From: Sedimenticola sp.
GTDB lineage: Bacteria > Pseudomonadota > Gammaproteobacteria > Chromatiales > Chromatiaceae
Direction: 5' to 3'
Length of the DNA stretch: 50,164 nt
Assembly: GCA_011051655.1 (NCBI GenBank)
Contig: DRKS01000090.1
Span: 1 to 50,164 of the forward strand
Under the pieces are notes generated by a model, which did no database searches, was not told the DNA's origin, and saw only the letters and a program-made list of their open reading frames with translations. Below, in pieces: positions 19,674 through 41,741 of the stretch; position 1 is the first letter of the stretch, and each line of letters begins with the position of its first letter. The translations under genes and the position numbers were made by a program.

Positions 19674-20116
19674 CACTGCGCCCGCTTTCCATACAGCTCG
19701 TTCAGGCGCCCGCAAAAGGCGTCCACCAGGGTGGTGGCGATCTGGCCGAATACCCTGCCGAAGGCGGAATTGATCAGTTTGCCGGAAAACTCGAACTCCA
19801 GCACCAGTTCCACCTTGCAGGCATCCGGGCGCAGCTCCGTCAGCCTCCATTCCCCCTCCAGCTTGCTGAAGGGTCCCTCTTCGAGACGGATCTCGATGCG
19901 CTTGTTGGGATGCAGGCGGTTGCGGGTCGTGAACTTCTGACGAATGCCCGCGCGGGCCACTTCCAACTGCCCGCATTGCTCCCGTTCCGTTTGTGAAATC
20001 AAGCGGCTCGAATGGCACCAGGGCAAAAAATCCGGATAGGACTCAATATCATTGATCACCCCGTACATTTGGGCCGCCGAGTACGGCACCAGGGCGCTTT
20101 TATGGATAACAGTCAT
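19673..20116 (-). CDS. ratA: RatA family protein (START/COQ10-like)
   Basis: A 147-residue single-domain START-like protein: VIHKSALVPYSAAQMYGVINDIESYPDFLPWC, in parts, is the standard N-terminus, and FEFSGKLINSAFGRVFGQIATTLVDAF the standard C-terminal helix. The family includes bacterial RatA (reported to inhibit 70S ribosome association in E. coli) and mitochondrial Coq10, which binds ubiquinone; which role applies here is unknown. It is followed by rnfH with a one-base overlap, and its start overlaps the stop of the upstream transporter gene by one base. Confidence 0.93.
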   Translation of the reverse strand: MTVIHKSALVPYSAAQMYGVINDIESYPDFLPWCHSSRLISQTEREQCGQLEVARAGIRQKFTTRNRLHPNKRIEIRLEEGPFSKLEGEWRLTELRPDACKVELVLEFEFSGKLINSAFGRVFGQIATTLVDAFCGRLNELYGKRAQ

Positions 20117-23902: not shown

Positions 23903-24481
23903 TCACGAAGAACTGAACAGGCCGGCAAACCCCATAAAGGCCATGGAGAGGATGCCGGAGATGATGAGATTGAAGGCGATGCCCTTCACCAGCACCGGCA
24001 CCTCGGACAGCTCCGTCTCTTCGCGCAGGCCCGCCATCAGGACGATGGCCAGGGTGAAGCCGAGGCCGGCGCCCAGGGCGTAAACCAAGCCTTCCCACAG
24101 GCCGTAGCCCTTGTTGGTGGCGAAAATCGCCAGCCCCAGGATAGCGCAGTTGGTGGTGATCAGCGGCAGGAAAATGCCCAGGGAGCGGAACAGGGCCGGG
24201 CTGAGCTTCTTGATCACCATCTCGATGAACTGCACCACACTGGCGATGACCACGATAAAGCTGATCAGGCGCAGATAGGGTGCGTAGATCAAGACATAGG
24301 TGTTCAGAATCCAGGCGCAGAGCGCCGTAATGACCATGACGAAGACGGTGGCCATGCCCAGGCGGAAGGAGGTCTCCAGCTTGCCGGACACGCCCAGGAA
24401 GGGGCACAGGCCGAGAAAGTACGCCAGTACGAAGTTGTTGATCAGCAGGGCGCTGATAAAGATCCAGCCCAGATCACCCAT
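23903..24481 (-). CDS. rnfA: Rnf electron transport complex subunit RnfA
   Basis: An integral membrane subunit of the ferredoxin:NAD oxidoreductase ion pump. The 192-residue, six-span product has the paired family motifs LLINNFVLAYFLGLCPFLGVSGKLET (in parts) and GIFLPLITTNCAILGLAIF, which are symmetric to those in RnfE and carry the Cys residues thought to hold a membrane Fe-S cluster between A and E. Its start overlaps the rnfE stop by one base. Order here is C-D-G-E-A. Confidence 0.96.
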   Translation of the reverse strand: MGDLGWIFISALLINNFVLAYFLGLCPFLGVSGKLETSFRLGMATVFVMVITALCAWILNTYVLIYAPYLRLISFIVVIASVVQFIEMVIKKLSPALFRSLGIFLPLITTNCAILGLAIFATNKGYGLWEGLVYALGAGLGFTLAIVLMAGLREETELSEVPVLVKGIAFNLIISGILSMAFMGFAGLFSSS

Positions 24482-25131
24482 CAGTCGGCGCCCCCTTCAG
24501 CCGCGGCCAGTTGCGCATCGAGTTTTTTCTTACGCTCCTCGACCCAGTTGAAAAAGAGCAGCATCAGGCCCAGGGTGATGAAGCCGCCGGGCGGCAGGAT
24601 CATGATCACCCAGGGTTCGAAGTTGGGGCCGAACAGGGAGAAGCCGAGCAGCTTGCCCTCCCCCAGGATCTCCCGTATGCCGCCGAGGGAGACCAGCGCC
24701 AGCAGAAAGCCGCTCGCCATGCCCACCGCGTCCAGCATCGCCATGGGGATGGTGTTCTTCGAGGCAAAGGCCTCCTGCCGCCCGAGGATCAGGCAGTTGG
24801 CGACGATCAGCGGAATAAAGGCACCCAGTTCCTTGTGCACCTTGGGAACCAGGGCCAGCAGGGTGTAATCCACCACCGTCACGAAGGTGGCGATAATGAT
24901 AATGAAGCAGGAAATGCGCACCTGCTTGGGGATGAAGCTCTTCAGCAGCGACACGAAAAAGCTGGAGCAGACCAGCACGAAAAAAGTGGCCAGGCCCATG
25001 GCGATGCCATTGATGGCGGAGTTGGTCACCGCCAGCATGGGGCACATGCCCAGCACCTGCACGAAAACCGGGTTTTCGCGCCAGACGCCCTTGATGAATT
25101 CGTCGTATGCTTGTTGCTGGGATTTGGCCAT
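24481..25131 (-). CDS. rnfE: Rnf electron transport complex subunit RnfE
   Basis: A 216-residue membrane subunit paralogous to RnfA. The diagnostic motifs are ENPVFVQVLGMCPMLAVTNSAINGIAMG (in parts) and GAFIPLIVANCLILGRQEAFASKN, with the conserved Cys in each half-helix. Six spans are followed by a charged C-terminal tail (VEERKKKLDAQLAAAEGG). It is separated from rnfG by a 39-base spacer made mostly of a 7-base tandem repeat, while its end overlaps rnfA. Confidence 0.96.
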   Translation of the reverse strand: MAKSQQQAYDEFIKGVWRENPVFVQVLGMCPMLAVTNSAINGIAMGLATFFVLVCSSFFVSLLKSFIPKQVRISCFIIIIATFVTVVDYTLLALVPKVHKELGAFIPLIVANCLILGRQEAFASKNTIPMAMLDAVGMASGFLLALVSLGGIREILGEGKLLGFSLFGPNFEPWVIMILPPGGFITLGLMLLFFNWVEERKKKLDAQLAAAEGGAD

Positions 25132-25140
25132 ATCTGTATA

Positions 25141-25175
25141 GGTTAAAGGTTAAAGGTTAAAGGTCACAGGTTAAA
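25141..25175. repeat. Heptamer tandem array in the rnfG-rnfE spacer
   Basis: Five 7-base units on the plus strand: GGTTAAA three times, GGTCACA, GGTTAAA. The array runs over the rnfG stop codon and fills nearly the whole spacer. Confidence 0.85.
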
Positions 25176-25908
25176 GGCCTTCGTCATTCGCGCCCGGCGG
25201 ATGTTCCTGCCCCTCTTTTCCCTTCTCGCCTTTCTTCTCTTCCACCTTCTCAAAGGCCGGCTCGGAGCCCGGCTCGGGAAGCTTGGACAACCAGCGCTCA
25301 TTTCCCTCGTTGATGATCCGCACCACCGCCTTGGAAGAGATGGTGGCGCCGGTGATGGCGTCTATTTCGTTGGGCTTGGACTTGGTGCCTTTCTTCACCG
25401 CCACGATCTTGGGATCGACCTCCAATCTGTCGAAGTTGGCCACAAAGGCGGCATCCTTGTAGATCTTGTCTCCCAGGCCTGGGGTCTCGCGGCTGTCCAG
25501 GATCCACATGCCGACCACCAGCCGCTCCTTGGGCCGGTAGCCGTAAAGCACGCTGATGGTGTCCTGAAAGCCGGGGCCCGCGCTCGGTATGGCGTAACCG
25601 ATGAAATTCCCTTCCTTGTCATAGCCGGCGTAGATGGGCTCCTCGTCTTTTTCCTCGACATGGGAAACCACCAGCTTGCCATCCTTCAGCAGCAGCTTCT
25701 GCATGTGGGCGACGCCCGGCAGGACCCGGAACACCGCCTCGCGCAACTCCCTGGCCTTGTTCTCCTTGATAGTGTTGAAGGTCGCCAGGTAGACCGCAAT
25801 GATGATGACGCCGGATATGAGGCCGGCCACCGCCAGGGTCCCTACCAGCCGGTTGGGGCTGGGTTCTTCGGCGCCGCCGGCGGGCGCCTGTTGTTCTTGA
25901 TCGCTCAT
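25171..25908 (-). CDS. rnfG: Rnf electron transport complex subunit RnfG
   Basis: The periplasm-facing flavoprotein subunit. The 245-residue product has a single N-terminal span (LVGTLAVAGLISGVIIIAVYLATF, residues 21-44), the FMN-binding domain with GYAIPSAGPGFQDTISVLYGY and DSRETPGLGD, and the flavinylation motif TGATIS (residues 186-191, FMN on Thr189). The C-terminus is an acidic/basic tail. Its start overlaps the rnfD stop (ATGA). An ApbE-type flavin transferase would be needed and is not in the window. Confidence 0.96.
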   Translation of the reverse strand: MSDQEQQAPAGGAEEPSPNRLVGTLAVAGLISGVIIIAVYLATFNTIKENKARELREAVFRVLPGVAHMQKLLLKDGKLVVSHVEEKDEEPIYAGYDKEGNFIGYAIPSAGPGFQDTISVLYGYRPKERLVVGMWILDSRETPGLGDKIYKDAAFVANFDRLEVDPKIVAVKKGTKSKPNEIDAITGATISSKAVVRIINEGNERWLSKLPEPGSEPAFEKVEEKKGEKGKEGQEHPPGANDEGL

Positions 25909-26915
25909 TTGGAGTCTAGCCCGCGTCCGAACACCCGCGGCTGGGTATAACGGTCAATCAATGGGGTCACGGCATTCATGAGCAGGATGGCGTACATCAT
26001 GCCCTCGGGAAAACCGCCGAACACCCGGATCAGGATCACCAGCAGCCCGATGCCGATGGCGAAGATCCAGGTGCCCTTCGGGGTAAGGGGGGAGGTCACC
26101 GGATCCGTCGCCATATAGATGGCGCCCAGCAGCATGCCGCCGGACAGGGCCGAGAAAATGGGACCGGGATACTTGTCCGGATCGATCAGAAACAGAATAC
26201 TGGAAAAGACCATTGCCGCAGCAAGTATTCCAACGGGGATGCGCCAGTCCAGATCACGCCGCCACCAGAGATAGACGCCGCCGAGAATCAGCAGCAGGCC
26301 GCTGGTCTCGCCCAGGGAGCCCGAGGTGTTGCCGAACAGCAGGTCGAAAAACCCCGTCTCCTTATGGGCAAACTTCATGAGGCCCAGGGGCGAGGCCTGG
26401 GTCAGGGCGTCCACCTCCCCTTGCATCAGCGGCAGGGCAAACACCGAGGAGGGAATGCTGAAAAAATCCCCCGGCGCCGTCCAGGTCGTCATGGCGATGG
26501 GGAAGGTGGCCAGCAGGAAGGCCCGGCCCACCAGCGCGGGATTGAACAGGTTGCCGCCCAGTCCCCCCCAGATGGTCTTGCCCAGGCCGATGGCCACCGC
26601 CCCGCCGATGAAGGCCATCCACATGGGCAGGGCCGGAGGCAGGGTCAGGCCCAGCAGCCAGCCCGTCAGGATGGCGCTGCCGTCACCCAGGAAATAGCGC
26701 CGCTTCTCCTGCGGGGAAAAGAACCACTCGACCAGCACGGCGCCCGCAATACTGGCCAGCAGCACCAAAAAGGCGCCCAGACCGAAGAACCAGATGCCCG
26801 CCAGGGTGGCCGGCGTGAGGGCATACCACACATCCCGCATGACCACCGGCGTGGTCATCTCCTGGCGCAGTTGCGGCCCCGGCTGGATTAACAGTTTTGG
26901 GTCCTTCTGAGTCAC
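25905..26915 (-). CDS. rnfD: Rnf electron transport complex subunit RnfD
   Basis: A membrane flavoprotein subunit of about 336 residues with roughly ten spans. Family marks are GDGSAILTGWLLGLTLPPALP, GGLGGNLFNPALVGRAFLLATFP and AIYMATDPVTSPLTPKG. I chose GTG at 26915, which overlaps the rnfC stop (GTGA) and has AGGAAGG just upstream; a frame opening at 27023 lies inside rnfC and is not coding. Its end overlaps rnfG. RnfD is one of the NqrB-like ion-translocating candidates. Confidence 0.95.
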   Translation of the reverse strand: MTQKDPKLLIQPGPQLRQEMTTPVVMRDVWYALTPATLAGIWFFGLGAFLVLLASIAGAVLVEWFFSPQEKRRYFLGDGSAILTGWLLGLTLPPALPMWMAFIGGAVAIGLGKTIWGGLGGNLFNPALVGRAFLLATFPIAMTTWTAPGDFFSIPSSVFALPLMQGEVDALTQASPLGLMKFAHKETGFFDLLFGNTSGSLGETSGLLLILGGVYLWWRRDLDWRIPVGILAAAMVFSSILFLIDPDKYPGPIFSALSGGMLLGAIYMATDPVTSPLTPKGTWIFAIGIGLLVILIRVFGGFPEGMMYAILLMNAVTPLIDRYTQPRVFGRGLDSK

Positions 26916-28264
26916 TTTTCCTTCCTCGTCATAGAGCGCAGGTAATCCTTGGCGGTACGGATGTGCTGCACAATGGGGATGCCGGAAGGACAGGAATAGG
27001 TGCAGCAGCCGCACTCGACACAATCCATCACATTATATTTCTCCGCCATTTCTTCATACAGGCGCGCCCTGGCCAGGCGGGCGAACCGGGCCGGGTTGAG
27101 AAAATAGGGACAGGCCTCGACGCAACGGCCGCAGCGGATGCACGGCCGCTCCTCGGGCCGGCCGGTCTCATTCGCGGTAAGGGCGAGAATGCCGGAGCTG
27201 CCCTTGAGGATGGGTGCGTCCAGATCGGCGATGGAGGCACCCATCATGGGACCGCCCATGACCACCTGGCGGGTCTCCTCCTTCAGGCCGCCGGCGAAGC
27301 GCAACAGGTCGCGAATGGGGGTTCCCAGGGGCGCCAGCAGGTTGGCCGGATAGGCCACGCCCGGGCCGGAGACGGTAACCACGCGCTCGATCAGCGGCAT
27401 GCCCTTCTGAAAATAATCCGCAATGGCGACGATGGTGCCCACATTGTTGACGGCGATCTGCACGTCCCGCGGCAGCTTGCCCGCCGGCACCTCCACGCCG
27501 AAGATGGACTTGATGAGCATCTTCTCCGCTCCCTGGGGATACTTCACCTCCAGGGGGACCACCCGCACCGGCTGCCCCGGCCCGATGGACCTTTGCAGCA
27601 TCTCGATGGCATCGGGCTTGTTCTTCTCGACGCCGATGACGATTTCCTCCGCCCCCAGCTTGCTGCGGACGATCTCCGCGCCATGGAGCAGGGCCTCGGG
27701 GCGCTCCACCATCAGGCGGTGGTCGGTGGTCAGATAGGGTTCGCACTCGGCCCCGTTGATCAGCAGGCAGCGGATCCTGGTGCCCTCCGGCAGGGAATAC
27801 TTGACGTGGCAGGGGAAGGCGGCGCCGCCCATGCCCACGATGCCCGCCTTCTGCACCTCGCCGATGAACGCCTCCAGGGAGAGGGACTCCCAGTCGATGG
27901 GGGCGCCCTCGAACTCCTGGCTGTCGTAGGGATCCGCCTCGATGGCGATGGCCTCGCGGAAGGTGCCGTCGGAATAGCGGTGAGGGCCGACATCCAGCAC
28001 CTTTCCCGTCACCGGGCTGTGCAGCGCCACGGAGACGAAGCCGCCCGGCCCGGCGATGAGCTGGCCGCGCCGCACCGCATCACCGGCCTTCACCACCGGC
28101 ACGGAGGGCGCGCCGATATGCTGCCCCAGGGGCATTACGAAGCGGCTGCCGAAGGGCAGCCGCTGGATCGGCAGATCCTCCGTCCGCTCCTTGTGATGAG
28201 GCGGATGGACGCCGTGATCGAAGCCGCCGAGGGCCCGGCCGGGCAGACGCAATGCTTTCATCAT
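26912..28264 (-). CDS. rnfC: Rnf electron transport complex subunit RnfC (short form)
   Basis: The soluble NADH-side subunit. The 450-residue product has the N-terminal RnfC barrel (GGFDHGVHPPHHKERTEDLPI, in parts, and VVKAGDAVRRGQLIA), a NuoF-like FMN/NADH domain (GIVGMGGAAFPCHVKY, INGAECEPYLTTDHRLM) and two [4Fe-4S] motifs, CIRCGRCVEACP (Cys375-385) and CVECGCCTYSCP (Cys415-425). It lacks the long Ala-rich tail of enterobacterial RsxC (about 740 residues) and so resembles the clostridial form. It follows sucD after 21 bases and overlaps rnfD. Confidence 0.96.
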   Translation of the reverse strand: MMKALRLPGRALGGFDHGVHPPHHKERTEDLPIQRLPFGSRFVMPLGQHIGAPSVPVVKAGDAVRRGQLIAGPGGFVSVALHSPVTGKVLDVGPHRYSDGTFREAIAIEADPYDSQEFEGAPIDWESLSLEAFIGEVQKAGIVGMGGAAFPCHVKYSLPEGTRIRCLLINGAECEPYLTTDHRLMVERPEALLHGAEIVRSKLGAEEIVIGVEKNKPDAIEMLQRSIGPGQPVRVVPLEVKYPQGAEKMLIKSIFGVEVPAGKLPRDVQIAVNNVGTIVAIADYFQKGMPLIERVVTVSGPGVAYPANLLAPLGTPIRDLLRFAGGLKEETRQVVMGGPMMGASIADLDAPILKGSSGILALTANETGRPEERPCIRCGRCVEACPYFLNPARFARLARARLYEEMAEKYNVMDCVECGCCTYSCPSGIPIVQHIRTAKDYLRSMTRKEK

Positions 28265-28285: not shown

Positions 28286-29161
28286 TCAACCATTGATCAA
28301 CTTCGCCATATGCCCGCCCATGTCGGCGGGGGAGCGGGAGACGGTCACCCCGGCCGCTTCGAGGGCGGCGATCTTGTCGGTGGCGGCCCCCTTGCCGCCG
28401 GAGATGATGGCGCCCGCATGGCCCATGCGGCGTCCCGGAGGCGCGGTCAGCCCGGCGATGTAGGAGACCACCGGCTTGGTGACATTGGCCTTGATGAACT
28501 CGGCCGCCTCTTCCTCCTTGCTGCCGCCGATCTCACCCACCATGATGATGCCCTTGGTCTGGTCGTCCTCCTGGAACAGCTTCAGGCAATCGATGAAGTT
28601 CATGCCGTGGATGGGGTCGCCGCCGATGCCGACGCAGGTGGACTGCCCCAGCCCCGCCAGGGAGGTCTGGCGCACCGCCTCATAGGTGAGGGTGCCGGAG
28701 CGGGAGACCACGCCGACGCAGCCCGGCTGGTGTATGGCGCCCGGCATGATGCCGATCTTGCACTCGCCCGGGGTGATGACGCCGGGGCAGTTGGGGCCGA
28801 TGAGATAGGGCTTGTTGTGCCCGCGCAGGGCGGCCTTCACTCTCAGCATATCCAGCACCGGAATGCCTTCGGTGATGCAGACGATGACCTTGATGCCGGC
28901 GTCCGCGGCCTCCAGGATGGCGTCCGCGGCGAAGGCCGGCGGCACGTAGATCATGCTGGCGTCGGCGCCGGTGGCGTCCACGGCGTCACGCACCGTGTTG
29001 AACACGGGACGGTCCAGGTGGGTCTGGCCGCCCTTGCCCGGGGTCACGCCGCCGATGATGTTGGTGCCGTATTCGATGGCCTGGCCGGCATGGAAGGTGC
29101 CCTGCTTGCCGGTAAATCCCTGGACGACGACCTTGGTCTCTTTGTTGATCAAAATACTCAT
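28286..29161 (-). CDS. sucD: Succinyl-CoA synthetase (ADP-forming) alpha subunit
   Basis: With SucC it interconverts succinyl-CoA and succinate plus ATP (or GTP). The 291-residue product has the CoA-binding Rossmann domain ([31 protein letters not shown]), [19 protein letters not shown] and the phosphohistidine site [10 protein letters not shown] (His248). Here sucD is separated from sucC by a lipoprotein gene; normally the two abut or overlap. It lies directly upstream of rnfC, placing the thiokinase within the oxidoreductase/Rnf gene series. Confidence 0.96.
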
Positions 29162-29208
29162 TGTTCGGATTCCTGTATCAGCATTCAGCTAAAACCGTAG
29201 CTGGATGG

Positions 29209-29574
29209 TCAAAAGGTCTTGACCACCGTCCAGCCATTATCTTGTTTCGCCATGCGCACCCTTGAGGCCAGCTTGCGGCGTTGCGCCGGCGGCGCCGTGA
29301 TATCCACCTCGATGCCGCAAACATAGGCGTCACCGCCCTCCTCCTTCACACAGCCGAGCTTATCGAGGCCGTGTATCCGGGTCGCCGTCCTGGCCGCGGC
29401 CTCCGGCCCCAGCATGGAGGCCGCCAATGCGTTGGCCCGGTCCATTTCCGCCCGGATGGCCGCGGTCAGCTCCGCCTCCGTGGGCCCGGCGGTGCAGCCA
29501 CCGAGGAGCGCGAGGGCAGCGCCCAAAGCCAGCGCCCGCGGGGGGGTTCTCAACACCGGGGACGGCACCGGCAA
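29209..29574 (-). CDS. Small putative lipoprotein between sucC and sucD
   Basis: A 121-residue protein with a signal peptide ending in lipobox LLGGC (lipidated Cys27). The mature part has a helical stretch (TEAELTAAIRAEMDRANALA) and a beta-rich C-terminal half with two Cys residues (KLGCVKEEGGDAYVCGIEVDI) that could form a disulfide, closing with VRMAKQDNGWTVVKTF. I do not recognise the family. The gap to sucC is 12 bases and to sucD 47, so it is almost certainly co-transcribed with them; its role there is not evident. Confidence 0.75.
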   Translation of the reverse strand: MPVPSPVLRTPPRALALGAALALLGGCTAGPTEAELTAAIRAEMDRANALAASMLGPEAAARTATRIHGLDKLGCVKEEGGDAYVCGIEVDITAPPAQRRKLASRVRMAKQDNGWTVVKTF

Positions 29575-29586
29575 TCAGCGATTGCC

Positions 29587-30747
<1,161 letters not shown>

Positions 30748-30843: not shown

Positions 30844-33800
30844 TTATTTGTATCCCGCTATCTTCAGCAACTGCTCGCGCACCTGCGCCGCCGCCTGGGC
30901 CTGGGCGCTGCTCTGCACGGCTCCGATCTGCTGTTCATACTCTTTCTTCAGCGCCACCAGCACGGCCTCGTGGGCCTGCTCCAGGCGCGCCTCGGTGGCC
31001 TGCTCGACGGCGGCGGCGAAGGGCGTCTCCACACCGGCCAGTTCCTGCAGGGTGCGCCAGACCTGGCCGCGCTCCGCGATCTGGTCCGCCAGCTCCGGGT
31101 CGATGCGGTAACGCACCTCCCCGGCGCCGTCCTCTTCCGTCACGGAGATGAAGGGGGTCTTGCCCCGGCGGGCGGGCGCGTCCAGCTCCAGCCAGGCGTC
31201 GAGGGCGGTGGGCGCCGGATCCTCGTCGCCGACGGGGGCGAAACGGGCGGCGAAACGCCGCTCGGTAATGGCCCAGTGGGCCGGCGTGAACGGCGTGCCA
31301 TCCTCGTTGGACAGCCAGGCCTCGCCGGGCTCCGGGTTGCCCTCCAGGCTGATGCGGGAACCGAATACCCCCTCCCCTTGTGGGTCGTAGCGGAACAGGG
31401 GGAAGGCCCGGCTGTCCAGCGCCAGCCGGGCCTGCCGCATGGCCTGGTTCACGTGGAAGCCATGGCGCCCGGGGCTGGGGACATGGACATGTATCAGCGC
31501 CGGCCCTTTGTACTTGAGGGCCTCGCGCATGCTCTGGCGCAGATGAGCCGCCGCGGCCACGGAGGTCTGGGCCACATAGGCGCTGCGCTGGGCGACGGCC
31601 AGCAGGCCCAGGTCCGCCTTGGGATCCCGGGCGGCCGCCAGGGGGGCGTCCGCCAGGCCGGCCCCGTCCAGGCCGAGATCGAGATCCGCCAGCACCAGCA
31701 CCTTGACCGGCAGGCCGGATTTCAGCAGCCAGGCCACCTGGGCGAAACCGCGGCCGCCCAGGGTCTCGTCGTTGCCCACCAGCAGCAGCGGCGGGCAAAG
31801 GGCGCGCTCCTCGTCGGTGAGATCCCGCCAGCCCAGGGTCTCCAGCTCCTGGCGCTTCTGCTCGATGCCGCTGGGCTGATCCAGCTCCAGCCGGGCCCGG
31901 CGCATGAGGGCGTGGGCGGCCACGGCCTCCCGCAGCTGGCCCTCCAGCAGGCCGGCGGCCATCTGGGCCGTGTCTCCGGTCATGTCCACGGCCACCGGGA
32001 CCTGGAAGGGATTGTTCGGGAAGACCCCCGCCCAGGTCGCGACCGGCCCCGGCGCAACCGCCAGCCCGAAGCGCGCCCGGCCCAGGCCGTGCCCGCCTTC
32101 GGCCAGATGCCAGCGCAGTTGTGTCAGTTCCTTGGCCAGGTTCGCCAAGCGGCGCAACTGGGCCACGTGCACGGCCTCGCCCTCGCCGGCCGCCTCGATC
32201 TTGCCGGTCAGTTCGGCGATATCCACCAGGCCGCCCCTGACCTGGTCCAGTCCGGCCAGGATGGCGTCCAGGTCATCCGCCGGCAGGGCCGCGGCCATGA
32301 TTTCCCGAATCCGTTCCCTGACCGCATCCAGGGTCTCGCCCACCTCCCGGGTAAATCCGTGAACCAGGGGCTGCTGCTGGTACTCGGTGGCGGCCAGGGC
32401 CAGGCGCACGGCGATCTTCTCTCCCGATCCGGCCTCGGCGCCGTCGCCGCCGGCAACCGCCATGGCGCAGAAGCGGGACAGCAGGACGGCGGCCATGGGC
32501 CCCACTTCGGGGTTGGCGCCCACCCGCTCGATAACCTCGGATGGGGTGTCCGGGGTCGCTTCCCAGATATTCCAGATCTCCCTTGCCTGTTCCAGCCGCT
32601 TGGCGTCCTGCTTCTCCGCCTTCAGGGCGCCGGGCTCGCAAACGGCGATGCAGATGCCGCAGCTCTTGCAGGCGTCCGGATTGATGGCCAGGGAGAGCAG
32701 CGCCCCGCTGTCCTTGCGCTCGGCCTCCAGATCCTTGAAAAAGTGCCCGGTCAGCACCACGGGCAGGGCGGCGAGCTTCCCGTGGACGCTGTCGAAGGCC
32801 TCGTCCATCGCCTGCTTGCGGTCCGCCGGCAGGGGCGCCTTCTCCTGCAGCCAGGCGTAGGCGTCCTTGAGCAGGGTCCCGGCAGTACCGCTGCCGGCCT
32901 TGCCGCTGCGGCCCTGGCTGCTGATGCGCCCGGCGATCTTGGAGCCCATCTGGCGCAGGGTGCCGGCGCCGGTGGCGGAGATCCCGGCGTCGATCAGGGC
33001 GCCCGGGGTCAGGGCGACGGCCCCGATGGCGCCGTCCGGGCAGCCGGTCCAGCACTTGCCGCAGCCGGTGCACTCCTTGGGATCGAACGCCGGCAGCATG
33101 CGCCTGGCGCCGCTGAAATCGCGGAAGGTGGAGGTCAGCGGCGGCACCGTGCCTGCCGCCATGTAGGGGTCGGCGGTCAGGTCGTCCGTCTCGCCCTTGC
33201 GGTAGAGGATGCCCACCTGGTCCCAGAACCGGGGCAGGCTGTCATGGCGTTCACCATCGCCCCCGAGGCGGCGCACGGCCATGGGGACATGGTCGGCTCC
33301 GGCGGCGGTCCGCGCGGGTTCGCCCAGGGCGCTGTGGTCTATCTTGCGCACGGCGGCGATGCCGTTCTGGAAGGAGGCCAGCAGGGCGGCGGCCTCCTGA
33401 TTCGGCAGGCCTTCCAGGGCCTCCTGCCGCGCGGGTATGAGCCGGCGCGCCTTGACGTCCACCCGGCCCGCATCCAGCAGGGCCTTGAACAGCGCGCCCA
33501 GCAGGTGTTCCCGGGCCAGATCGGCCCCGGCCACGCCCGGCGTCCTGGCATTGCGCTTGCGCGGGGTCACGGCGTAGAGGGTCAGGTTTCTCCGGCGGAT
33601 GGCGGCGCGGGTTTCGGCGGAAAGCCCCTGCCACAGGGCATCGTCCGTGCCGGCGCCCACTATCATCAGGGCGCCGCCATCACGCAGCCCGGCATGGGGT
33701 TTGAGCAGGGGATTGGGGCGTTTGGCCGCCATGATGGCAAAGTCCACCGGCGCATCGTCGCCGACGTCTTGCAGCCCCTCCGGGGCATGGGTCAGGAGGT

Positions 33801-35475
33801 CGGTGCAGCAGGCGCCCCAGCGCTCCCAGGCCAGCCCCGGCCGGCTGCGCAGATGGCCGCCCACCAGCCGGTGCAGATAATTGCCGGCCTCCACGGCCAA
33901 CCCCTCGGCGCCCTGCCCGGTCACCCGGTGCACGGCGATGCTGAGGGCCCCGGCGGGACGCAGGTCAGGGGCCTCCGCAGCCGCCCGCACGCCCTGGTCC
34001 GCAATCTCGGGATAGGCGCGCCGCAGGCTGTCCAGCAGCACCTGGCGTTTCGGATATTTACTGGTGCTGCGCGCCAAATCGACGCCGAGATAGAGGCGGG
34101 GCGCATTCCTGCCATCCAGCTCATTGCACAGGGCGATCAGATCCGCCGCCCGTAGCGGCTGGCCGCCCAGGCCATAGATCACGGAGCGCAGGCGCGGCCG
34201 CTGGTTTTCCTTGATGGCCGGGTAGCCCGGATGGGTCTGCTCCCCATGGCGGCTGTTCTCCCGGGCCCGGTCCAGGGCGGCGCGCAGTTCGCGCATCAGC
34301 GGCGCATCGCCGGCCAGCGGCGTATCCGCCCGCTCCAGCACCACCACGTTTTTGCGGCCCGCCAGAAGGCCGGCCATCTGTTCGGCCGGGAAGGGGCGCA
34401 CGCAGTGGATGCCGATCACGCCCACATGTTCTTCCCACTCGCGGGCCAGATGCCCGGCCACCGACCTGGCGGTCTCGATGGCGGCCCCTTGGGCCACCAG
34501 CACCAGCTTGGCGTTATCTTCGGAATAGTGCGGCCACTCGGACGGATCCGGGCCCAAATCATGGGTGGACAGCGCACCATACTGCCGGCCCGCCTGCCGG
34601 GCGAATTCGGCAAAGGCCTGTTCGAGCATGCCGGCCACCTGTTGTTCAAAACAGGCGGCCTGGGCCACCGCACCCAGGGGCGAACTCTCCGGTCCCTGCA
34701 GCGCGCCGTGCATGACCGGGTTGTCCAGGTCATGCCAGATCGGCACCCTGCGGCGGGTCTCGCCGAACAGCAGCCTTTGCGCATCGGTGGGGACCGGAAT
34801 CTGTTCGTCGGCCGGCCCGATGAAGCGCTCGGCCAATCTCAGGGAAGGCAGCAGGACATCCTGGACCGCCTGCGCCGTCTGCTCCCCATCCATGGCGACC
34901 AGGCCGGGAACCAGGGCCTGCTCGGCCACGCGGCGGGCGATGAGGGTGAAATCCACCGCTTCCTGGACATTGGAGGCGACCAGGGTAAAGAAACCGGAAT
35001 CGGCGCTCAGATGAATCGCCTCATGGCCGCTGCCAAGGGAGCCGCCCTGGGCGGCCAGGGTGCGGTTCTCCAGGTGCAACACCAGGGGCAGATGCCTGCC
35101 GGCGGCGGCCCGCAGCAGATCCTGGGCGGCGGCGATGTCCTGTCCGGAGACAAAGGCGGTGGCCCGGCTGCCGGCCATGGCCAGCCCGCTCGCGGCGGCC
35201 AGCGCGCCACGGGGACCCTCGGTTTCGCAAGTGGCGATCAGGCCGCCGAAGGCATCCGTATCACGCTGCTCCTGCTCACAGCGCCAGGCCTGGTTGGCGC
35301 CGTCTCCGGGGAAAGAGGTCCCCAGGGCGCTGGCGCCGGCGATGCCGGCCTCGGTGACGGCGACGGCACTGTTGCCGTCCAGCACCGCCTCCACTCCATC
35401 TTCCCGCCGTTCCCCGGCCGAAGACGCGAATAAACGCCGGTACAGGCGAATGGCCATGGTGTTTAAACTAGGCAT
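30844..35475 (-). CDS. Giant PFOR-like protein with degenerate thiamine sites and intact ferredoxin domain
   Basis: A 1543-residue protein laid out like pyruvate:ferredoxin oxidoreductase (NifJ, about 1200). Residues 30-260 match the PFOR alpha domain (VLDGNSAVAVTEAGIAG), but the expected YPITP site reads TSFPGDG. Residues 320-460 match domain II (VAQGAAIETARSVAGHL, VIYGLGGQPL). Residues about 500-720 match the gamma domain (FAIMAAKRPNPLLKPHAGL, GGALMIVGAG). An intact two-cluster ferredoxin domain follows (CTGCGKCWTGCP near 800, CKSCGICIAVCEPGAL near 935). After a helical insert, about 1225-1390 resembles the TPP domain, but the GDG Mg-TPP motif is replaced (LLLVGNDETLGG). The end is helical. 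It is probably an electron-transfer and scaffold subunit rather than an active oxidoreductase. Its start overlaps the rnfB stop; an alternative ATG lies at 35457. Confidence 0.85.
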   Translation of the reverse strand: MPSLNTMAIRLYRRLFASSAGERREDGVEAVLDGNSAVAVTEAGIAGASALGTSFPGDGANQAWRCEQEQRDTDAFGGLIATCETEGPRGALAAASGLAMAGSRATAFVSGQDIAAAQDLLRAAAGRHLPLVLHLENRTLAAQGGSLGSGHEAIHLSADSGFFTLVASNVQEAVDFTLIARRVAEQALVPGLVAMDGEQTAQAVQDVLLPSLRLAERFIGPADEQIPVPTDAQRLLFGETRRRVPIWHDLDNPVMHGALQGPESSPLGAVAQAACFEQQVAGMLEQAFAEFARQAGRQYGALSTHDLGPDPSEWPHYSEDNAKLVLVAQGAAIETARSVAGHLAREWEEHVGVIGIHCVRPFPAEQMAGLLAGRKNVVVLERADTPLAGDAPLMRELRAALDRARENSRHGEQTHPGYPAIKENQRPRLRSVIYGLGGQPLRAADLIALCNELDGRNAPRLYLGVDLARSTSKYPKRQVLLDSLRRAYPEIADQGVRAAAEAPDLRPAGALSIAVHRVTGQGAEGLAVEAGNYLHRLVGGHLRSRPGLAWERWGACCTDLLTHAPEGLQDVGDDAPVDFAIMAAKRPNPLLKPHAGLRDGGALMIVGAGTDDALWQGLSAETRAAIRRRNLTLYAVTPRKRNARTPGVAGADLAREHLLGALFKALLDAGRVDVKARRLIPARQEALEGLPNQEAAALLASFQNGIAAVRKIDHSALGEPARTAAGADHVPMAVRRLGGDGERHDSLPRFWDQVGILYRKGETDDLTADPYMAAGTVPPLTSTFRDFSGARRMLPAFDPKECTGCGKCWTGCPDGAIGAVALTPGALIDAGISATGAGTLRQMGSKIAGRISSQGRSGKAGSGTAGTLLKDAYAWLQEKAPLPADRKQAMDEAFDSVHGKLAALPVVLTGHFFKDLEAERKDSGALLSLAINPDACKSCGICIAVCEPGALKAEKQDAKRLEQAREIWNIWEATPDTPSEVIERVGANPEVGPMAAVLLSRFCAMAVAGGDGAEAGSGEKIAVRLALAATEYQQQPLVHGFTREVGETLDAVRERIREIMAAALPADDLDAILAGLDQVRGGLVDIAELTGKIEAAGEGEAVHVAQLRRLANLAKELTQLRWHLAEGGHGLGRARFGLAVAPGPVATWAGVFPNNPFQVPVAVDMTGDTAQMAAGLLEGQLREAVAAHALMRRARLELDQPSGIEQKRQELETLGWRDLTDEERALCPPLLLVGNDETLGGRGFAQVAWLLKSGLPVKVLVLADLDLGLDGAGLADAPLAAARDPKADLGLLAVAQRSAYVAQTSVAAAAHLRQSMREALKYKGPALIHVHVPSPGRHGFHVNQAMRQARLALDSRAFPLFRYDPQGEGVFGSRISLEGNPEPGEAWLSNEDGTPFTPAHWAITERRFAARFAPVGDEDPAPTALDAWLELDAPARRGKTPFISVTEEDGAGEVRYRIDPELADQIAERGQVWRTLQELAGVETPFAAAVEQATEARLEQAHEAVLVALKKEYEQQIGAVQSSAQAQAAAQVREQLLKIAGYK

Positions 35476-36331
35476 GTCGTTTCAGGCTCTTGTGTTGATC
35501 TTGGCTGTCTTGTTCAAACTGGTTGCCTTCCAGCCAGACGATGGCGTTGGTGGGGCAGCGGAAGGTGGCCTCGGGCTTGAGCGGCCCGGCCTGGAAGTGC
35601 ACCACCGGCAGATTGTTCTCCATGGTGACCACGCCGGGAGCCGAATCGGCGGAGCAGCGGCCGCAGGCGTCGCAGGCCACGCTGCACAGGGCCACGGCGT
35701 CGTCGCCGGCCAGGGGGGAATTGCACTGGACGTAGAGGTGCTCGTTGAGGGGCCTGATCTCGAACAGGTCCCGCGGGCAGGCCTCCACACAATCGCCGCA
35801 GGCGGTGCAGAGGTCCACGTCCACCTTGGGCAGCCCGTCTTCGTTCATCTTGATGGCATCGAAGGTGCAGGATATCTCGCAATCGGCGAGCCCCAGGCAG
35901 CCCCAGGGACAGCCCTTGCCGCCACCGGATACCACATCCGCGGCGCGGCAGCCGTCGAAGCCCTGGTATTCCGCAATCTGGGCGGCCTCCGCCCTGCCGC
36001 CGGCGCAGCGCAGCCGCGCCACCTGCTTGACCTGCTCGCCCGCATCGACACCGAGGTACTCGGCAATGCTTTCAAGGGCCTCGGGACTGGCCACGGTGCA
36101 TTTGCTGGGCTGGACTTCGCCCGCCACCAGTTTCTCGGAAAAGGCGCGGCAGCCGGGCTCTCCGCAGGCCCCGCAATTGGTGCCCGGCAGCAGCTCTTCC
36201 GTATCGTCGATCCTGGGGTCTTCTTCAACCTTCAGGAAACGGTAGGCCACCGCCAGCACGATACCGAAAAACAGTCCCAGCCCGAGCATGATGCCCGGTG
36301 CGGAGAAGATTGTCTCTAGATCGAAGGACAT
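35468..36331 (-). CDS. rnfB: Long-form RnfB ferredoxin-type Fe-S membrane protein
   Basis: A 287-residue protein with one N-terminal transmembrane helix (residues 11-33) and the RnfB four-Cys Fe-S domain (GTNCGACGEPGC, then C78). The extended multi-cluster region follows: GGKGCPWGCLGLADCEISCTF, CTACGDCVEACP (Cys175-185), and a third group CSVACDACGRC (216-226). This is the long RnfB of clostridial and Bacteroidetes Rnf, not the short 190-residue enterobacterial RsxB. In the Rnf complex RnfB takes electrons from ferredoxin. Here it lies between two PFOR-like subunits, overlapping the giant gene by 8 bases and starting 7 bases after the 836-residue subunit ends, and 7 kb from the rest of rnf. 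Confidence 0.88.
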   Translation of the reverse strand: MSFDLETIFSAPGIMLGLGLFFGIVLAVAYRFLKVEEDPRIDDTEELLPGTNCGACGEPGCRAFSEKLVAGEVQPSKCTVASPEALESIAEYLGVDAGEQVKQVARLRCAGGRAEAAQIAEYQGFDGCRAADVVSGGGKGCPWGCLGLADCEISCTFDAIKMNEDGLPKVDVDLCTACGDCVEACPRDLFEIRPLNEHLYVQCNSPLAGDDAVALCSVACDACGRCSADSAPGVVTMENNLPVVHFQAGPLKPEATFRCPTNAIVWLEGNQFEQDSQDQHKSLKRHA

Positions 36332-36338
36332 AAAAAAA

Positions 36339-38849
36339 CTAGTTATACGCCTCGGCCCGTTTGATCAGCTCTTCCAGTCCAGGCTCATCCGGATTCAGCG
36401 GCTTGCCGGGATGGATGCAGTTGGCGGGACAGAACTCGGCCGCCTCGACCAGCTGGGCATAGGTTCCGGCCTTGGGGTCTGCGATATAGGCCTGCTTGTC
36501 GTCGTTGTAGACGAACATCTGCGGGTTGAGGTTGATACAGTCGTTACAACTGGTGCACAGGATGGTTTCGATCCAGGGCTCGTCGAAGCTGACCTCTTCC
36601 TCTTCAGGTTCCGGAGCGGCCTCAGGGGCGGCCTCCGGTTCGGGCGCCGCTGCTTCTTGTGCCGGGGCGGCGGCCGGCGCCTCCGCCGGAGCGGCCTTCG
36701 GGGCCGCCGCCGAAGCGGCCGGCGCCATGGCGGAGAGGTCCAGGCCGACCAGGGCGTCGGCCAGGCGGCCCAGCGCCTCGCCGGCGGTCTCGGTGCGGAC
36801 CCGCTCCAGCTCCTCGGCGTGTTCCTTCAGTATGCTCTCGATCTCGGCGGCGGCGGCGGCCTGGGCCTCTTCGGTGGCCTTTTGGGCCGCCAGTTCGGCA
36901 TAGCGGTTGCGCACGCCGGCCAGCTCCTGCAGGGTCCGCCAGAAGTTGCGGCGATCCTGACAGGCCATCACCAGGGCCCGGGTAATGGCCAGCCGGTGAA
37001 GGACGCCCTTGCCGTCGACGGCCCACACGAAGGGGATGCAGTCGTTGGCCTGCTCTTCGGACATGGCGAGCCACTGGGCCACCGGCACCAGGTTGTCCGA
37101 TACGCAGCCGGCCGGAATCAGGCCAAAATGGCTGTGCAGGCGCGACACCACCAGCGCATAGTCGGCGAAGGTGAAGACCAGCTCCGAATCGACCACTTCG
37201 CCGCTGGCCTCCTGGTAGCTGTAGCTGTGCAGGGGCCAGTCCTGCTCCGGCTGCGGGTTGCAGCTGAAGTCCATGCGTGAGGCGGCATCGTCACCGGCCT
37301 GGGGGTCCACCCGGAAGAAGGGATGGGCACGGCCTTCCAGCGCGGCGCTGGCGACGAACCAGGGGTCCAGGGCGTCATCGCTGGCCGGCTGGGCGCCGGT
37401 GCTGAGCAGGTGAAGCCCGCTGCGGGTGGCCTCCAGGGCCAGGTCGTACTGGGCCAGCAGGTGGTCATAGCGGGCCGCGGAGGACTGGGAGACCACCGCC
37501 TGGCGATGACTGATGCCGAGGTAGCCCAGTTCGAGGCGGTAGCTCTTGAACGGGTCCTCATCGTCCCGCGCGCCCGGGTTGTTGTGGGGCTGCACGCGGG
37601 CAAGCACCTGCACGTGCCGGCCTGAATTCAGCAGCCGGGAAAGGGACGGCAGCCCTTCCCCGCCGATGCGGGCGGCGTTCTCCAGGGCGGCGATGGTGGG
37701 GACCAGCAGCAGTTCCTGCCGGGAGAAGCCCTCCCAGCCGAAGTCCTTGAACCAGGGATCATGCACGGCGGCGTCATATTTGCCGGCGATTTCGAGCCGG
37801 GCGATGCGCGCGGCGGCAAAGACCTTGGCCAGCCTGGCCGCTTCCCTGTCGAAAATGGCGGCCGCCGCCTGGCAGGGGTCCGCATCCTGGACCGTCTCGA
37901 ATTCGGGGGCCTCGTCCAGCCAGGTGTCGGCCAGCTTGTCCACGTGCACGAAGTGGATCAGGATGGGGTCTTCCTGGTAGCCCTCGAGCGCCTTCAACGC
38001 CCCCTCGATGCGCTTGCGCCGTTTCGGCGCCATGGCGATGGAGCCCTGGGCGTGGCTGATCATTTTCGAGAAGGCGCTGGCGTCGAAATAAGAGCTGGCG
38101 GCGCCGACGCTGCCCTTGATGGCCCCCGGCTTCCTGGCGCTGGCGGACTTTTCCTTTTCCACCTCCAGCAGGGCCTTCAGGCTGCCCTTGAGCTCCTGGA
38201 TCTCCTCCCGGAAGGCGGCGCGCCTGGGGGCGGTTTTGCTGCGGACCGTATGGATCAACAGGTGAATGGCCGCATAGCGGCCGTAGCCGAGGAGCTGGCT
38301 GCCGGGCTCCACCGCGGCCATCAGCTTGTCCAGATCGGCCTGCAGGCGCTCCCGGTGTTCCTCGGACAGATTGAGATGCTCCTGCAGGGCGCTGGCGGCA
38401 TCGGCGAACAGGGGGGCGGCCTCCGCCGGCCGCTCCCGGCCATGCATTTTTCCGCACAGCTCACGCTCCAGCCAGGCCAGGTTGTCCTTCAGGATACGGG
38501 CGCTTTCGGCGCCGGGGGCGAAGCCCTCCACCGCATCCCCGAGAAAGCGTGAAAGCGGCTTGGCCAGGGGGCCGTCTTGGGCCTTTTCCGCCGGGGACAG
38601 GAACAGCGGATAGTCATACCGCACCCTGGAAACATCCCGGAAACTGTTAAGCGAGACGGGCAGGAAATCACTGTTGACCTCGCCTACCTTCGCCCTCGCC
38701 CCCGGCTCACCCAGGTGGAAGCGGCGCAAGATGCCCATCAGTTCCTCGGAAGCGGCCGCATCCGCGATAACGGCGGGCAGGACCGGCAGGCCCGCCGCCT
38801 TGTTTTCAGCTTCCTGCGCCGGCTGCTCTTTAATGGCTCGTGCTGTCAT
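36339..38849 (-). CDS. PFOR-related large subunit with C-terminal [4Fe-4S] ferredoxin
   Basis: An 836-residue protein of no clear named family. Residues 1-370 are mostly helical (SEEHRERLQADLDKLMAAVEPG; EEIQELKGSLKALLEVEKEK). From about 370 to 700 it parallels the end of the giant neighbour: SRLLNSGRHVQVLA matches VAWLLKSGLPVKVLV, HPFFRVDPQ matches FPLFRYDPQ, and WRTLQELAGV is identical. This region derives from a PFOR thiamine domain but keeps no GDG motif. An Ala/Pro/Glu-rich linker (about 709-752) leads to a ferredoxin with CTSCNDC (near 763) and FCPANCIHPG. Gene order puts it 21 bases after korB. Most likely an electron-carrier subunit of the KorAB complex. Confidence 0.82.
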   Translation of the reverse strand: MTARAIKEQPAQEAENKAAGLPVLPAVIADAAASEELMGILRRFHLGEPGARAKVGEVNSDFLPVSLNSFRDVSRVRYDYPLFLSPAEKAQDGPLAKPLSRFLGDAVEGFAPGAESARILKDNLAWLERELCGKMHGRERPAEAAPLFADAASALQEHLNLSEEHRERLQADLDKLMAAVEPGSQLLGYGRYAAIHLLIHTVRSKTAPRRAAFREEIQELKGSLKALLEVEKEKSASARKPGAIKGSVGAASSYFDASAFSKMISHAQGSIAMAPKRRKRIEGALKALEGYQEDPILIHFVHVDKLADTWLDEAPEFETVQDADPCQAAAAIFDREAARLAKVFAAARIARLEIAGKYDAAVHDPWFKDFGWEGFSRQELLLVPTIAALENAARIGGEGLPSLSRLLNSGRHVQVLARVQPHNNPGARDDEDPFKSYRLELGYLGISHRQAVVSQSSAARYDHLLAQYDLALEATRSGLHLLSTGAQPASDDALDPWFVASAALEGRAHPFFRVDPQAGDDAASRMDFSCNPQPEQDWPLHSYSYQEASGEVVDSELVFTFADYALVVSRLHSHFGLIPAGCVSDNLVPVAQWLAMSEEQANDCIPFVWAVDGKGVLHRLAITRALVMACQDRRNFWRTLQELAGVRNRYAELAAQKATEEAQAAAAAEIESILKEHAEELERVRTETAGEALGRLADALVGLDLSAMAPAASAAAPKAAPAEAPAAAPAQEAAAPEPEAAPEAAPEPEEEEVSFDEPWIETILCTSCNDCINLNPQMFVYNDDKQAYIADPKAGTYAQLVEAAEFCPANCIHPGKPLNPDEPGLEELIKRAEAYN

Positions 38850-38870: not shown

Positions 38871-39824
38871 TTAGATCGAGAAGGAATCCAGCGCCTTGTT
38901 GATACCGGCGATCTTTTCCTCGTCGGACATCCCCATGCCCACGCTGCTCCAGTCGTCATACACCGGGGCGTCCGGGTTGTGATACAGCAGGCCGCAGGGC
39001 ACCTGCAGTTCATTCCGGGCGATCTCCATGGCGGCGTTCCAGTCGGACGGATCATGCTCCCGCTGGTTGGGATAGATGCGCTCCACCGCCTCGTTGGTGG
39101 GGATGCCGTTTTCGTGTTTCAACAGCAGGATCTGGGACGGGTCGTTCTGGAGATCCTTGTGCACCTCTTCCACGAACACGGGGCAACGCTGAATGATGCG
39201 GACAAAGCTGGTGCCGCGGTGGGCGTGGGCCTTTTTGATGGTTTCGTACACCAGCAGCGGGTTCCAGTCCACCACCTGGGCCACGAAGGAGACGTTGCTC
39301 ACGCCCAGGGTGACGGTCAGGGGGTTCAACGGCGGCAGGAAGGCTCCCGTCGGGTGGGTGTTGGTCTTGAGACCCACTGGGCTGGTGGGCGAACTCTGCT
39401 TCTTGGTCAGGCCGTAGACGGCGTTGTCGAACACCAGCACGGTCATGTCTATGTTGTAGCGCAGGGCATGCACCCAGTGGCAGCCGCCGATGGAGAAGCA
39501 GTCACCATCGCCGGTGGCGACCCAGACGTCCAGGTCAGGACGGCGGGCCTTTACGCCGGAGGCGAAGGGCAGCGCCCGGCCGTGCAGGCCGTGAAAGCCA
39601 TAGGTGCCCATGTAGTGCGGCAGGCGGCTGGAGCAGCCGATGCCGGATACGGCGACGATCTTCTCCGGTGGCAACTGGGCCTCGCGGCACACCTTATGCA
39701 CGGCGGTCAGTACGCCGTGATCACCACAGCCGGTGCACCAGCGGGGCTTGGCGCCCTCGTAATCTTCAATCGTGAAATAGCGGTCTTGAACGTCAAGTGA
39801 CCAGTCTGCTTTAAGTCCAAACAT
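38871..39824 (-). CDS. korB: 2-oxoacid (2-oxoglutarate):ferredoxin oxidoreductase beta subunit KorB
   Basis: The thiamine-diphosphate and Fe-S subunit. The 317-residue product has the cluster ligands RWCTGCGDHGVL (Cys30, Cys33) and GIGCSSRLPHY (Cys64), plus a later Cys in QRCPVFVEE. The TPP-Mg motif GDGDCFSIGG (106-115) is intact, with NAVYGLTKKQSSPTSPVG. All catalytic marks are present, unlike the two PFOR-like neighbours. A perfect AGGAGGT Shine-Dalgarno overlaps the end of korA. Substrate is inferred as 2-oxoglutarate from subunit type and the sucCD neighbourhood; pyruvate or another 2-oxoacid cannot be excluded. Confidence 0.94.
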   Translation of the reverse strand: MFGLKADWSLDVQDRYFTIEDYEGAKPRWCTGCGDHGVLTAVHKVCREAQLPPEKIVAVSGIGCSSRLPHYMGTYGFHGLHGRALPFASGVKARRPDLDVWVATGDGDCFSIGGCHWVHALRYNIDMTVLVFDNAVYGLTKKQSSPTSPVGLKTNTHPTGAFLPPLNPLTVTLGVSNVSFVAQVVDWNPLLVYETIKKAHAHRGTSFVRIIQRCPVFVEEVHKDLQNDPSQILLLKHENGIPTNEAVERIYPNQREHDPSDWNAAMEIARNELQVPCGLLYHNPDAPVYDDWSSVGMGMSDEEKIAGINKALDSFSI

Positions 39825-39836
39825 CGGCGGAACCTC

Positions 39837-41741
<1,905 letters not shown>

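Follow-up and report, generated by a model that had tools for sequence, protein, structure and literature searches.

A probable pseudoenzyme derived from PFOR in the Kor-linked rnf operon of Sedimenticola and its relatives

What can become of a pyruvate:ferredoxin oxidoreductase (PFOR) once its thiamine site is gone? The question is raised by a stretch of 50,164 nucleotides (contig DRKS01000090.1, assembly GCA_011051655.1, Sedimenticola sp.), analyzed as a whole and hereafter called the window, whose minus strand encodes a PFOR-like protein of 1543 residues within an operon of rnf genes. We call this protein pseudo-PFOR. Genes for KorA and KorB, the subunits of a probable 2-oxoglutarate:ferredoxin oxidoreductase (KorAB), are found in the same operon. 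The answer for which we argue here, with a probability of roughly 0.6, is that pseudo-PFOR is a PFOR-derived pseudoenzyme that, as one subunit of a Kor-linked Rnf system, transfers electrons; the system would carry out an ion-pumping oxidation of 2-oxoglutarate. The sequences themselves document the loss of catalytic motifs, the retention of cluster ligands, the position in the operon, the co-occurrence with KorA and the selection acting on the gene. Below, G labels denote genomes and L labels denote loci or stretches of DNA.

Motifs lost and kept in pseudo-PFOR

Full-length relatives with at least 40% identity to the window protein, of about 1540 residues, form family A. Proteins with about 30% identity to it, mostly of about 1650 residues, form the sister family B. 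We aligned 66 proteins (35 of family A, 17 of family B, and 14 PFORs), retaining frames of 1100-2000 residues and the best match per locus. A first-pass annotation had described the window protein as a full-length PFOR-like protein with the PFOR domain order, about 350 residues longer than NifJ. Profile comparison agrees with this description. The family A profile (35 rows) gives a single match with the PFOR profile (14 rows), over columns 50-1439 of 1552 (E 1.1e-57) and in the PFOR domain order, and matches the family B profile over columns 32-1540 (E 1.2e-207). The 14 PFORs measure 1190-1232 residues, which makes pseudo-PFOR longer by 311-353. Its score against TIGR02176 (NifJ) is 131.9 bits, below the cut-off of 911.35. 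Pfam recognizes POR_N (82-223), PFOR_II (322-404) and Fer4 (near 796 and 930) in pseudo-PFOR, and neither the gamma domain (POR) nor TPP_enzyme_C. The same holds within the family: in a Pfam scan (E 0.001) of 20 of the 35 A rows and all 17 B rows, POR_N, PFOR_II, and Fer4 are present in 20/20 A proteins, while the gamma domain POR (PF01558) and TPP_enzyme_C are recognized in 0/20, vs. 17/17 for family B.

The sites discussed below are the following (TPP, thiamine pyrophosphate).

30844..35475, minus strand: pseudo-PFOR (family A), 1543 residues, ATG start; alpha domain, PFOR_II, degenerate gamma region, 2[4Fe-4S] ferredoxin domain, degenerate TPP domain
35299..35322, minus strand: GTSFPGDG, residues 52-59, replacing YPITPSS (PFOR Thr31 is Phe55 here)
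35212..35214, minus strand: Pro88, at the catalytic Glu position
33040..33072, minus strand: ferredoxin motif 1, C802/805/808/812
32671..33039, minus strand: 123-residue stretch between the ferredoxin motifs, common to family B, candidate docking element
32638..32670, minus strand: ferredoxin motif 2, C936/939/942/946
32425..32436, minus strand: E1014 to S1017, at the first two proximal-cluster Cys
32047..32424, minus strand: 126-residue stretch between lost proximal Cys positions, common to family B
32044..32046, minus strand: P1144, at the third proximal Cys
31753..31776, minus strand: GNDETLGG, residues 1234-1241, replacing GDGWAY (Mg-TPP motif)
31663..31692, minus strand: LADLDLGLDG, replacing LDTEVYSNTGG (second half of the Mg-TPP motif, placed by alignment)
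31474..31476, minus strand: S1334, at the fourth proximal Cys

Catalytic positions were mapped onto family A through the alignments using the numbering and roles that we take to apply to Desulfovibrio africanus PFOR (T31, the catalytic E64, R114, D963, T991, V993, and C812/815/840/1071). At the YPITPSS site, the equivalent stretch is GTSFPGD (residues 52-58), and the SFPGDG read there by the first-pass annotation is indeed at residues 54-59; YPITP occurs in 0/35 A sequences, vs. 17/17 B and 14/14 PFORs. The position of the catalytic Glu is occupied by Pro (28), Ala (5) or Val (2) in the 35 A sequences, while Glu is found in 17/17 B and 14/14 PFORs. The GNDETLGG motif, announced near residue 1230, is located at 1234-1241, and the GDG that it replaces is kept in 0/35 A, 17/17 B, and 14/14 PFORs. 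The Asp position of GDG is not conserved in family A because Asp is present in just 10 of 35 sequences, that of the window among them. As for the second half of the motif, DT..YSNTGG is found in 0/35 A sequences; YSNTGG is present in all 17 B and 14 PFORs, one B row (L067) reading NT for DT. Since no A sequence keeps these motifs while all B and PFOR sequences do, with the exception just mentioned, the losses are not due to chance. The possibility that catalytic positions are lost in all homologues, also considered at first, holds for the 35 A orthologues and fails for the sister family.

The loss extends to an iron-sulfur cluster. The four residues C812, C815, C840, and C1071 presumably hold the TPP-proximal [4Fe-4S] cluster in PFOR; Cys occurs at these positions in 0, 2, 0, and 0 of the 35 A sequences, vs. 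17/17 B and 14/14 PFORs. The replacements are Glu (35/35), mostly Ser (32/35), variable residues, and Ser (35/35), respectively. Meanwhile, the eight Cys of the ferredoxin domain are invariant (35/35), in agreement with the two intact [4Fe-4S] motifs first reported near residues 800 and 935 (C802-C812 and C936-C946). From this pattern of motifs and Cys, it follows that family A lost the reaction center and the first electron stop, and kept the wire. The idea of a dead enzyme put forward in the first-pass annotation is strongly supported by these comparisons: neither the thiamine ligands nor the catalytic Glu are kept, and the proximal Cys are gone as well (two rows keep one Cys), on one branch and under purifying selection (see below), so that pseudo-PFOR is almost certainly unable to catalyze the PFOR reaction.

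That pseudo-PFOR has remained active as a 2-oxoacid oxidoreductase, binding TPP through other residues, seems very improbable to us. Homology to PFOR extends over most of its length, the position of Arg114 is Arg in 20/35 A sequences, and some former TPP-site positions are conserved within the family, for example Gly-Leu at 1268-1269. Against this, Glu is missing at the Glu64 position, the Mg-TPP motif has lost both its halves, no gamma domain is recognizable, and the proximal cluster has been lost. Thiamine ligands at shifted positions were also considered and set aside, the alignments offering no apparent substitute motif.

Compared with PFOR/NifJ (PDB 1b0p, 6cin), pseudo-PFOR is thus alike by its homology over most of the length, its domain order, and its 2[4Fe-4S] ferredoxin domain, and differs by the missing TPP ligands, proximal-cluster Cys and recognizable gamma domain as well as by its greater length. 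Part of this length lies in two regions. The ferredoxin motifs are separated by 117-124 residues in family A (123 in the window), vs. 45-47 in the 14 PFORs, and the spacing between proximal Cys positions is 114-141 residues (126 in the window), vs. 24; both long forms are common to family B. These shared regions are candidate docking sites for Rnf. They also speak for a different role, in which pseudo-PFOR would simply hold KorAB, Rnf, and a companion protein of the operon (P836, described below) together, electrons being carried by a soluble ferredoxin. We regard this purely structural role as improbable, since a mere scaffold would not need the ferredoxin Cys, and all eight are kept in 35/35 sequences while the four proximal ones are lost.

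Sister family, ancestry and selection

Whole-genome searches show how these families are distributed. Family A is present in 40 of the 195 genomes of the window's order, and A and/or B (E 1e-60) in 118 of them. In the wider class, matches are found in 26/369 genomes, 11 of them of A type by the same identity limit, and in the wider phylum in 2/299 genomes, namely the window's genome and one with a B type. Family A occurs in several gammaproteobacterial families, and many of the same genomes still hold the intact B form. At 70% identity, the named relatives are metagenome-assembled genomes (MAGs) labeled Sedimenticola sp., Gammaproteobacteria bacterium, and Candidatus Polarisedimenticolaceae bacterium. 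Family B (L055-L066, L068-L071), a PFOR with intact catalytic motifs, lies beside rnf genes in Gammaproteobacteria, in a Gemmatimonadota and in a Bacteroidota, the latter two on replicons of Gemmatirosa kalamazoonensis and Persicobacter psychrovividus.

In a quick tree of the PFOR family (57 rows, LG+G4, no bootstrap, nine near-duplicate A rows dropped, with warnings of long branches and uneven letter composition), family A forms one clade adjoining B, with a Shimodaira-Hasegawa-like approximate likelihood ratio (SH-aLRT) support of 100 and a stem of 1.21. L067 is a long branch outside the remaining B sequences. This protein (L067:2827-10679, in G060) represents a third, distant lineage with catalytic motifs intact except for the NT noted above; it is followed by a 951-residue protein with Pyr_redox_2, Fer4_20, and DHODB Fe-S domains, and no Rnf gene is found in the 14 kb of the stretch.

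The RnfC sequences accompanying A and B are jointly separated from the other RnfC of these genomes with a support of 100 (quick tree, 47 different rows). The Gemmatirosa RnfC clusters with those of family A (91, on a long branch), the Gemmatirosa PFOR itself clustering with B. In this organism, RnfB and an intact B gene come after KorA and KorB, a gene order that may resemble the stage preceding the loss of catalysis.

The genes of family A are under purifying selection. The ratio of nonsynonymous to synonymous substitution rates (dN/dS) ranges from 0.057 to 0.200 in nine A pairs, with 0.106 for the window vs. L018 (dS 1.9); for comparison, it is 0.047, 0.064, and 0.153 in three B pairs and 0.088 in one PFOR pair. 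The catalytic residues are missing across the sampled clade, whose genes are maintained by selection, as expected of a pseudoenzyme. A decaying gene without function would also have lost its catalytic residues, and the relative in G078 does carry an in-frame TAG; with such dN/dS values, invariant cluster Cys, and at least 35 relatives whose frame is full-length, we find this reading extremely improbable.

An rnf operon with KorAB and a second degenerate protein

On the minus strand of the window, the order of genes is NuoF-like, KorA, KorB, P836, RnfB, pseudo-PFOR, SucC, SucD, RnfC, RnfD, RnfG, RnfE, RnfA. The features other than pseudo-PFOR are as follows.

42023..43270, minus strand: NuoF-type NADH-binding iron-sulfur flavoprotein
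39837..41741, minus strand: KorA (gamma-alpha fusion), YPITP and EDEIA intact
38871..39824, minus strand: KorB, TPP motif and Cys intact
36339..38849, minus strand: P836, 836 residues, including a ferredoxin domain; degenerate relative of the B C-terminal part
36411..36560, minus strand: Fer4_13 ferredoxin domain of P836, residues 764-813
35468..36331, minus strand: RnfB-type iron-sulfur protein, overlapping the start of pseudo-PFOR by 8 bases
29587..30747, minus strand: SucC, succinyl-CoA synthetase beta
28286..29161, minus strand: SucD, succinyl-CoA synthetase alpha
26912..28264, minus strand: RnfC, sole full RnfC found in the window's genome
25905..27023, minus strand: RnfD; the open reading frame as listed overlaps RnfC, and the true start is probably internal
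25171..25908, minus strand: RnfG-type flavin mononucleotide (FMN)-binding protein
24481..25131, minus strand: RnfE-type membrane subunit (E and A distinguished by order only)
23903..24481, minus strand: RnfA-type membrane subunit (E and A distinguished by order only)

From KorA through RnfB, the intergenic gaps measure 7-21 bases, and the placement of pseudo-PFOR is conserved. RnfB lies upstream of 40 of 41 A genes, within 0.8 kb in 39 cases and at 1.9 kb in G051; for the last gene (L089) the stretch stops short. SucC or RnfC lies downstream of 37 of 41, within 0.21 kb in 35 cases and at 1.1-1.2 kb in G051 and G056. Of the four remaining A genes, three are at contig ends (L040, L090, L091), and the last, in G116 (L052), has neither SucC nor RnfC in the 6.3 kb that follow. 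As judged from the genes alone, pseudo-PFOR thus has a conserved place inside the rnf operon and may be considered Rnf-linked. KorB is found upstream in 13 of the 14 A stretches that reach far enough, G051 being the exception. The B gene fills the slot between rnfB and rnfC in 15/17 cases, with RnfB upstream in 15/17 (in two frames in L065) and RnfC downstream in 16/17; in L071, RnfB is at the far end of the stretch. In L065 (G006), the C-terminal ferredoxin part of B is also in a separate frame, which may correspond to a frameshift or to a true split. Among the B stretches fetched from the order, 14 carry Rnf genes, and a Kor gene is found in none of these.

KorA and KorB have the motifs of their family. 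YPITP and EDEIA are present in 11/11 KorA sequences, GDGD and five invariant Cys in 13/13 KorB sequences, one row coming from Gemmatirosa in each set; the KorB cluster is presumably held by C30, C33, C64, and C214. KorA scores 514.5 bits against TIGR03710 (cut-off 482.75), and KorB 231.6 bits against TIGR02177, below the cut-off of 261.9. As compared with known KorAB, which it resembles by its TPP motifs, the present one is encoded in the same tight operon as Rnf and two pseudoenzymes derived from PFOR. An orthologous KorA (at least 68% identity) accompanies family A in 39/39 tested genomes (18 genera, four families; the G231 copy is in two adjacent frames), vs. 0/30 tested genomes without A, 11 of which hold merely a distant KorA (33-43%) at E 1e-60. 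Further A-type genomes outside this test are G005, G013 (fragments), G078, G101, G203, G207, G295, G299, G363, G415, G514, and G538. Together with the intact KorA and KorB motifs and the invariant ferredoxin Cys, this co-occurrence agrees with the electron conduit beside a live KorAB imagined in the first-pass annotation, the role of conduit or scaffold being itself one that we infer.

The second degenerate protein, P836, corresponds by alignment to residues 982-1641 of L055, in the C-terminal part of B. In 14 sequences, it has the proximal Cys in 0/14, GDG in 0/14 and the ferredoxin Cys in 14/14. For the ferredoxin domain of P836, a match to D. africanus ferredoxin I is obtained (E 1.9e-4), and a C-terminal Fer4_13 ferredoxin is found in 14/17 B proteins (Pfam, E 0.001). 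Jointly, pseudo-PFOR and P836 retain the ferredoxin-type cluster sites of a B protein, without the proximal one. An IglI_fam identity for P836 was disregarded, its score being far below the cut-off. No separate gene for a small ferredoxin subunit is found among the operon genes scanned. P836, like the rnf setting, the intact family B, and the loss of the proximal Cys and of the gamma domain, comes in addition to what was first noticed in this DNA.

Electrons could also leave by another door. The NuoF-like gene adjoins KorA in the window, L008, L010, L048, and L049, and its product might accept the electrons of KorAB, forming a soluble 2-oxoglutarate:NAD+ oxidoreductase, with Rnf served separately. 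However, this gene is not found in the 3.0 kb past KorA in L046 nor in the 1.4 kb past it in the related L054, the other stretches ending too early, and it is beside rnfB that pseudo-PFOR keeps its place; we hold this route to be quite improbable.

Other features of the region deserve mention. Between SucC and SucD (29162-29586, minus strand), a small frame with a lipobox-like LGGC, similar to frames in the same gap of L008, L009, L010, and L043, is probably a lipoprotein gene inside the operon. Past RnfA (20116-21495, minus strand) is a gene of the sodium:neurotransmitter symporter family, which may hint at a sodium-based economy. In G070 (L053), an A-type RnfC (C1:2094588-2095883) lies about 9 kb past SucD and does not adjoin it. 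Rfam finds nothing at gathering scores in positions 20000-45000 of the window.

Electron routes and metabolic role

How, then, might a PFOR without catalysis have been kept? In the scenario that we propose, we infer the order of events, which proteins are in contact, how the electrons travel, that the reaction is oxidative, and what its substrate is. The ancestor would have resembled family B, a PFOR type encoded in the slot between rnfB and rnfC and in most cases fused to a ferredoxin domain. On the stem of family A, the TPP site would have been lost together with the TPP-proximal [4Fe-4S] cluster and the recognizable gamma domain, the attached ferredoxin being now borne by the companion P836. 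KorAB would supply exactly the lost parts, TPP and a proximal cluster, and thereby replace the catalytic head. Electrons from 2-oxoglutarate would then pass from KorB to the two clusters of pseudo-PFOR and/or the ferredoxin of P836, from there to RnfB, and through Rnf to NAD+, with ion pumping, while SucCD would convert succinyl-CoA into succinate with formation of ATP. A path from KorAB through pseudo-PFOR and P836 to Rnf is likely; the direction of the flow is the part of which we are least sure. It is conceivable, with odds somewhat short of even, that KorAB, pseudo-PFOR, P836, and Rnf make up one supercomplex, a ferredoxin-free, membrane-attached and ion-pumping 2-oxoglutarate dehydrogenase in which the former enzyme would be only a wire.

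The window's genome, which is 95.8% complete, gives some indications on the metabolic context. It contains one KorA (E 1e-10), one full RnfC, and citrate synthase. No 2-oxoglutarate dehydrogenase E1 (SucA) is found in it, so that the cluster would there be the sole route found from 2-oxoglutarate to succinyl-CoA. Nothing scores above the cut-off for ATP-citrate lyase, with a weak probe that passes in 1/14 controls. Two PFORs with intact motifs are present elsewhere in the genome (L072, L073). With these and the residues lost from pseudo-PFOR, a feeding of Rnf by pyruvate through pseudo-PFOR was rejected.

The same complex might run in reverse, the ion gradient driving electrons of NADH through Rnf and pseudo-PFOR/P836 to KorAB, where succinyl-CoA would be carboxylated to 2-oxoglutarate, either in a reductive tricarboxylic acid (TCA) cycle or for glutamate supply. 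Kor is reversible, Sedimenticola is a sulfur-oxidizing genus, and the named relatives include a MAG labeled as such; moreover, 36 of the 39 tested A genomes retain SucA for the oxidative direction. Rnf is reversible as well, as stated in passages of PMC12174285. On the other side, the window's genome has citrate synthase without a detected SucA and no ATP-citrate lyase above the cut-off of the weak probe. Reverse running appears unlikely to us, though clearly less so than the readings as a scaffold, a soluble NuoF-like route, an active enzyme or a decaying gene.

Several points weigh against the proposal of an electron-transfer subunit working in the oxidative direction. SucA is above the cut-off in 36/39 tested A genomes, so that in most of them the cluster is an addition rather than the sole route, and the absence of SucA fails to separate the groups (3/39 A genomes, G000, G015, and G531, vs. 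1/30 others, G002). Because of the 95.8% completeness, single copies and absences in the window's genome are provisional. The 30 genomes without A, of which 20 have B and 10 lack both families, were hand-picked, and the co-occurrence counts ignore phylogeny. The 35 A rows were picked as long frames (1100-2000 residues), and the gene with the in-frame TAG in G078 is a further A gene beyond them. The substrate of this KorAB is assumed from its family and from SucCD. Two AlphaFold models of pseudo-PFOR, computed from four-sequence alignments (window, L008-L010), have mean predicted local distance difference test (pLDDT) values of 37.6 (residues 1-760) and 38.2 (745-1543). In G116, no Rnf gene follows pseudo-PFOR within 6.3 kb. 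Finally, in G051 (L047:2617-9810), two unrelated frames of about 200 residues, similar to each other, separate rnfB from pseudo-PFOR, a PDDEXK_2 transposase-family gene stands between pseudo-PFOR and rnfC, no RnfD follows within the stretch, and KorA is on a different contig; in this unlinked case, the orthologous KorA is still kept.

Related arrangements have been described. In the Solemya velum symbiont, a PFOR gene lies between rnfB2 and rnfC2, the same slot as that of pseudo-PFOR, and pyruvate was proposed as the donor for Rnf, according to the passages concerned (PMC4287430). In the Riftia symbiont, a "PFOR-like" gene and a dimeric OGOR, korAB(3), both decrease under sulfide limitation (PMC11636981); the pair is a possible counterpart of the A cluster, and a loss of catalysis is not mentioned in the passages of that source. 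For A. vinosum, which has three rnf clusters, a passage of the genome paper describes their role as entirely unclear (PMC3368242). The RNF1 of A. vinelandii, as presented in parts of PMC12174285, likewise combines Rnf with an added cytoplasmic subunit, RnfH; RnfH has no redox cofactor, whereas pseudo-PFOR keeps the Cys of two clusters. Our literature searches, whose coverage leaves out most subscription journals, found no report of a lost PFOR catalytic site or of the present arrangement.

The proposal changes the reading of PFOR genes in rnf operons. The pyruvate interpretation, as given in the passages of PMC4287430, would be suitable for PFORs of the intact B type; the sequence contradicts it in the case of the A type, for which it would be wrong. 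If the wiring proposed here is true, the operon would be a natural alternative to 2-oxoglutarate dehydrogenase that conserves energy. It would also be a clear example of how a large redox enzyme can lose its catalytic head, its wire being retained and connected to another enzyme. If, in addition, the supercomplex exists, it would recover the energy that is lost by the NAD-linked 2-oxoglutarate dehydrogenase.

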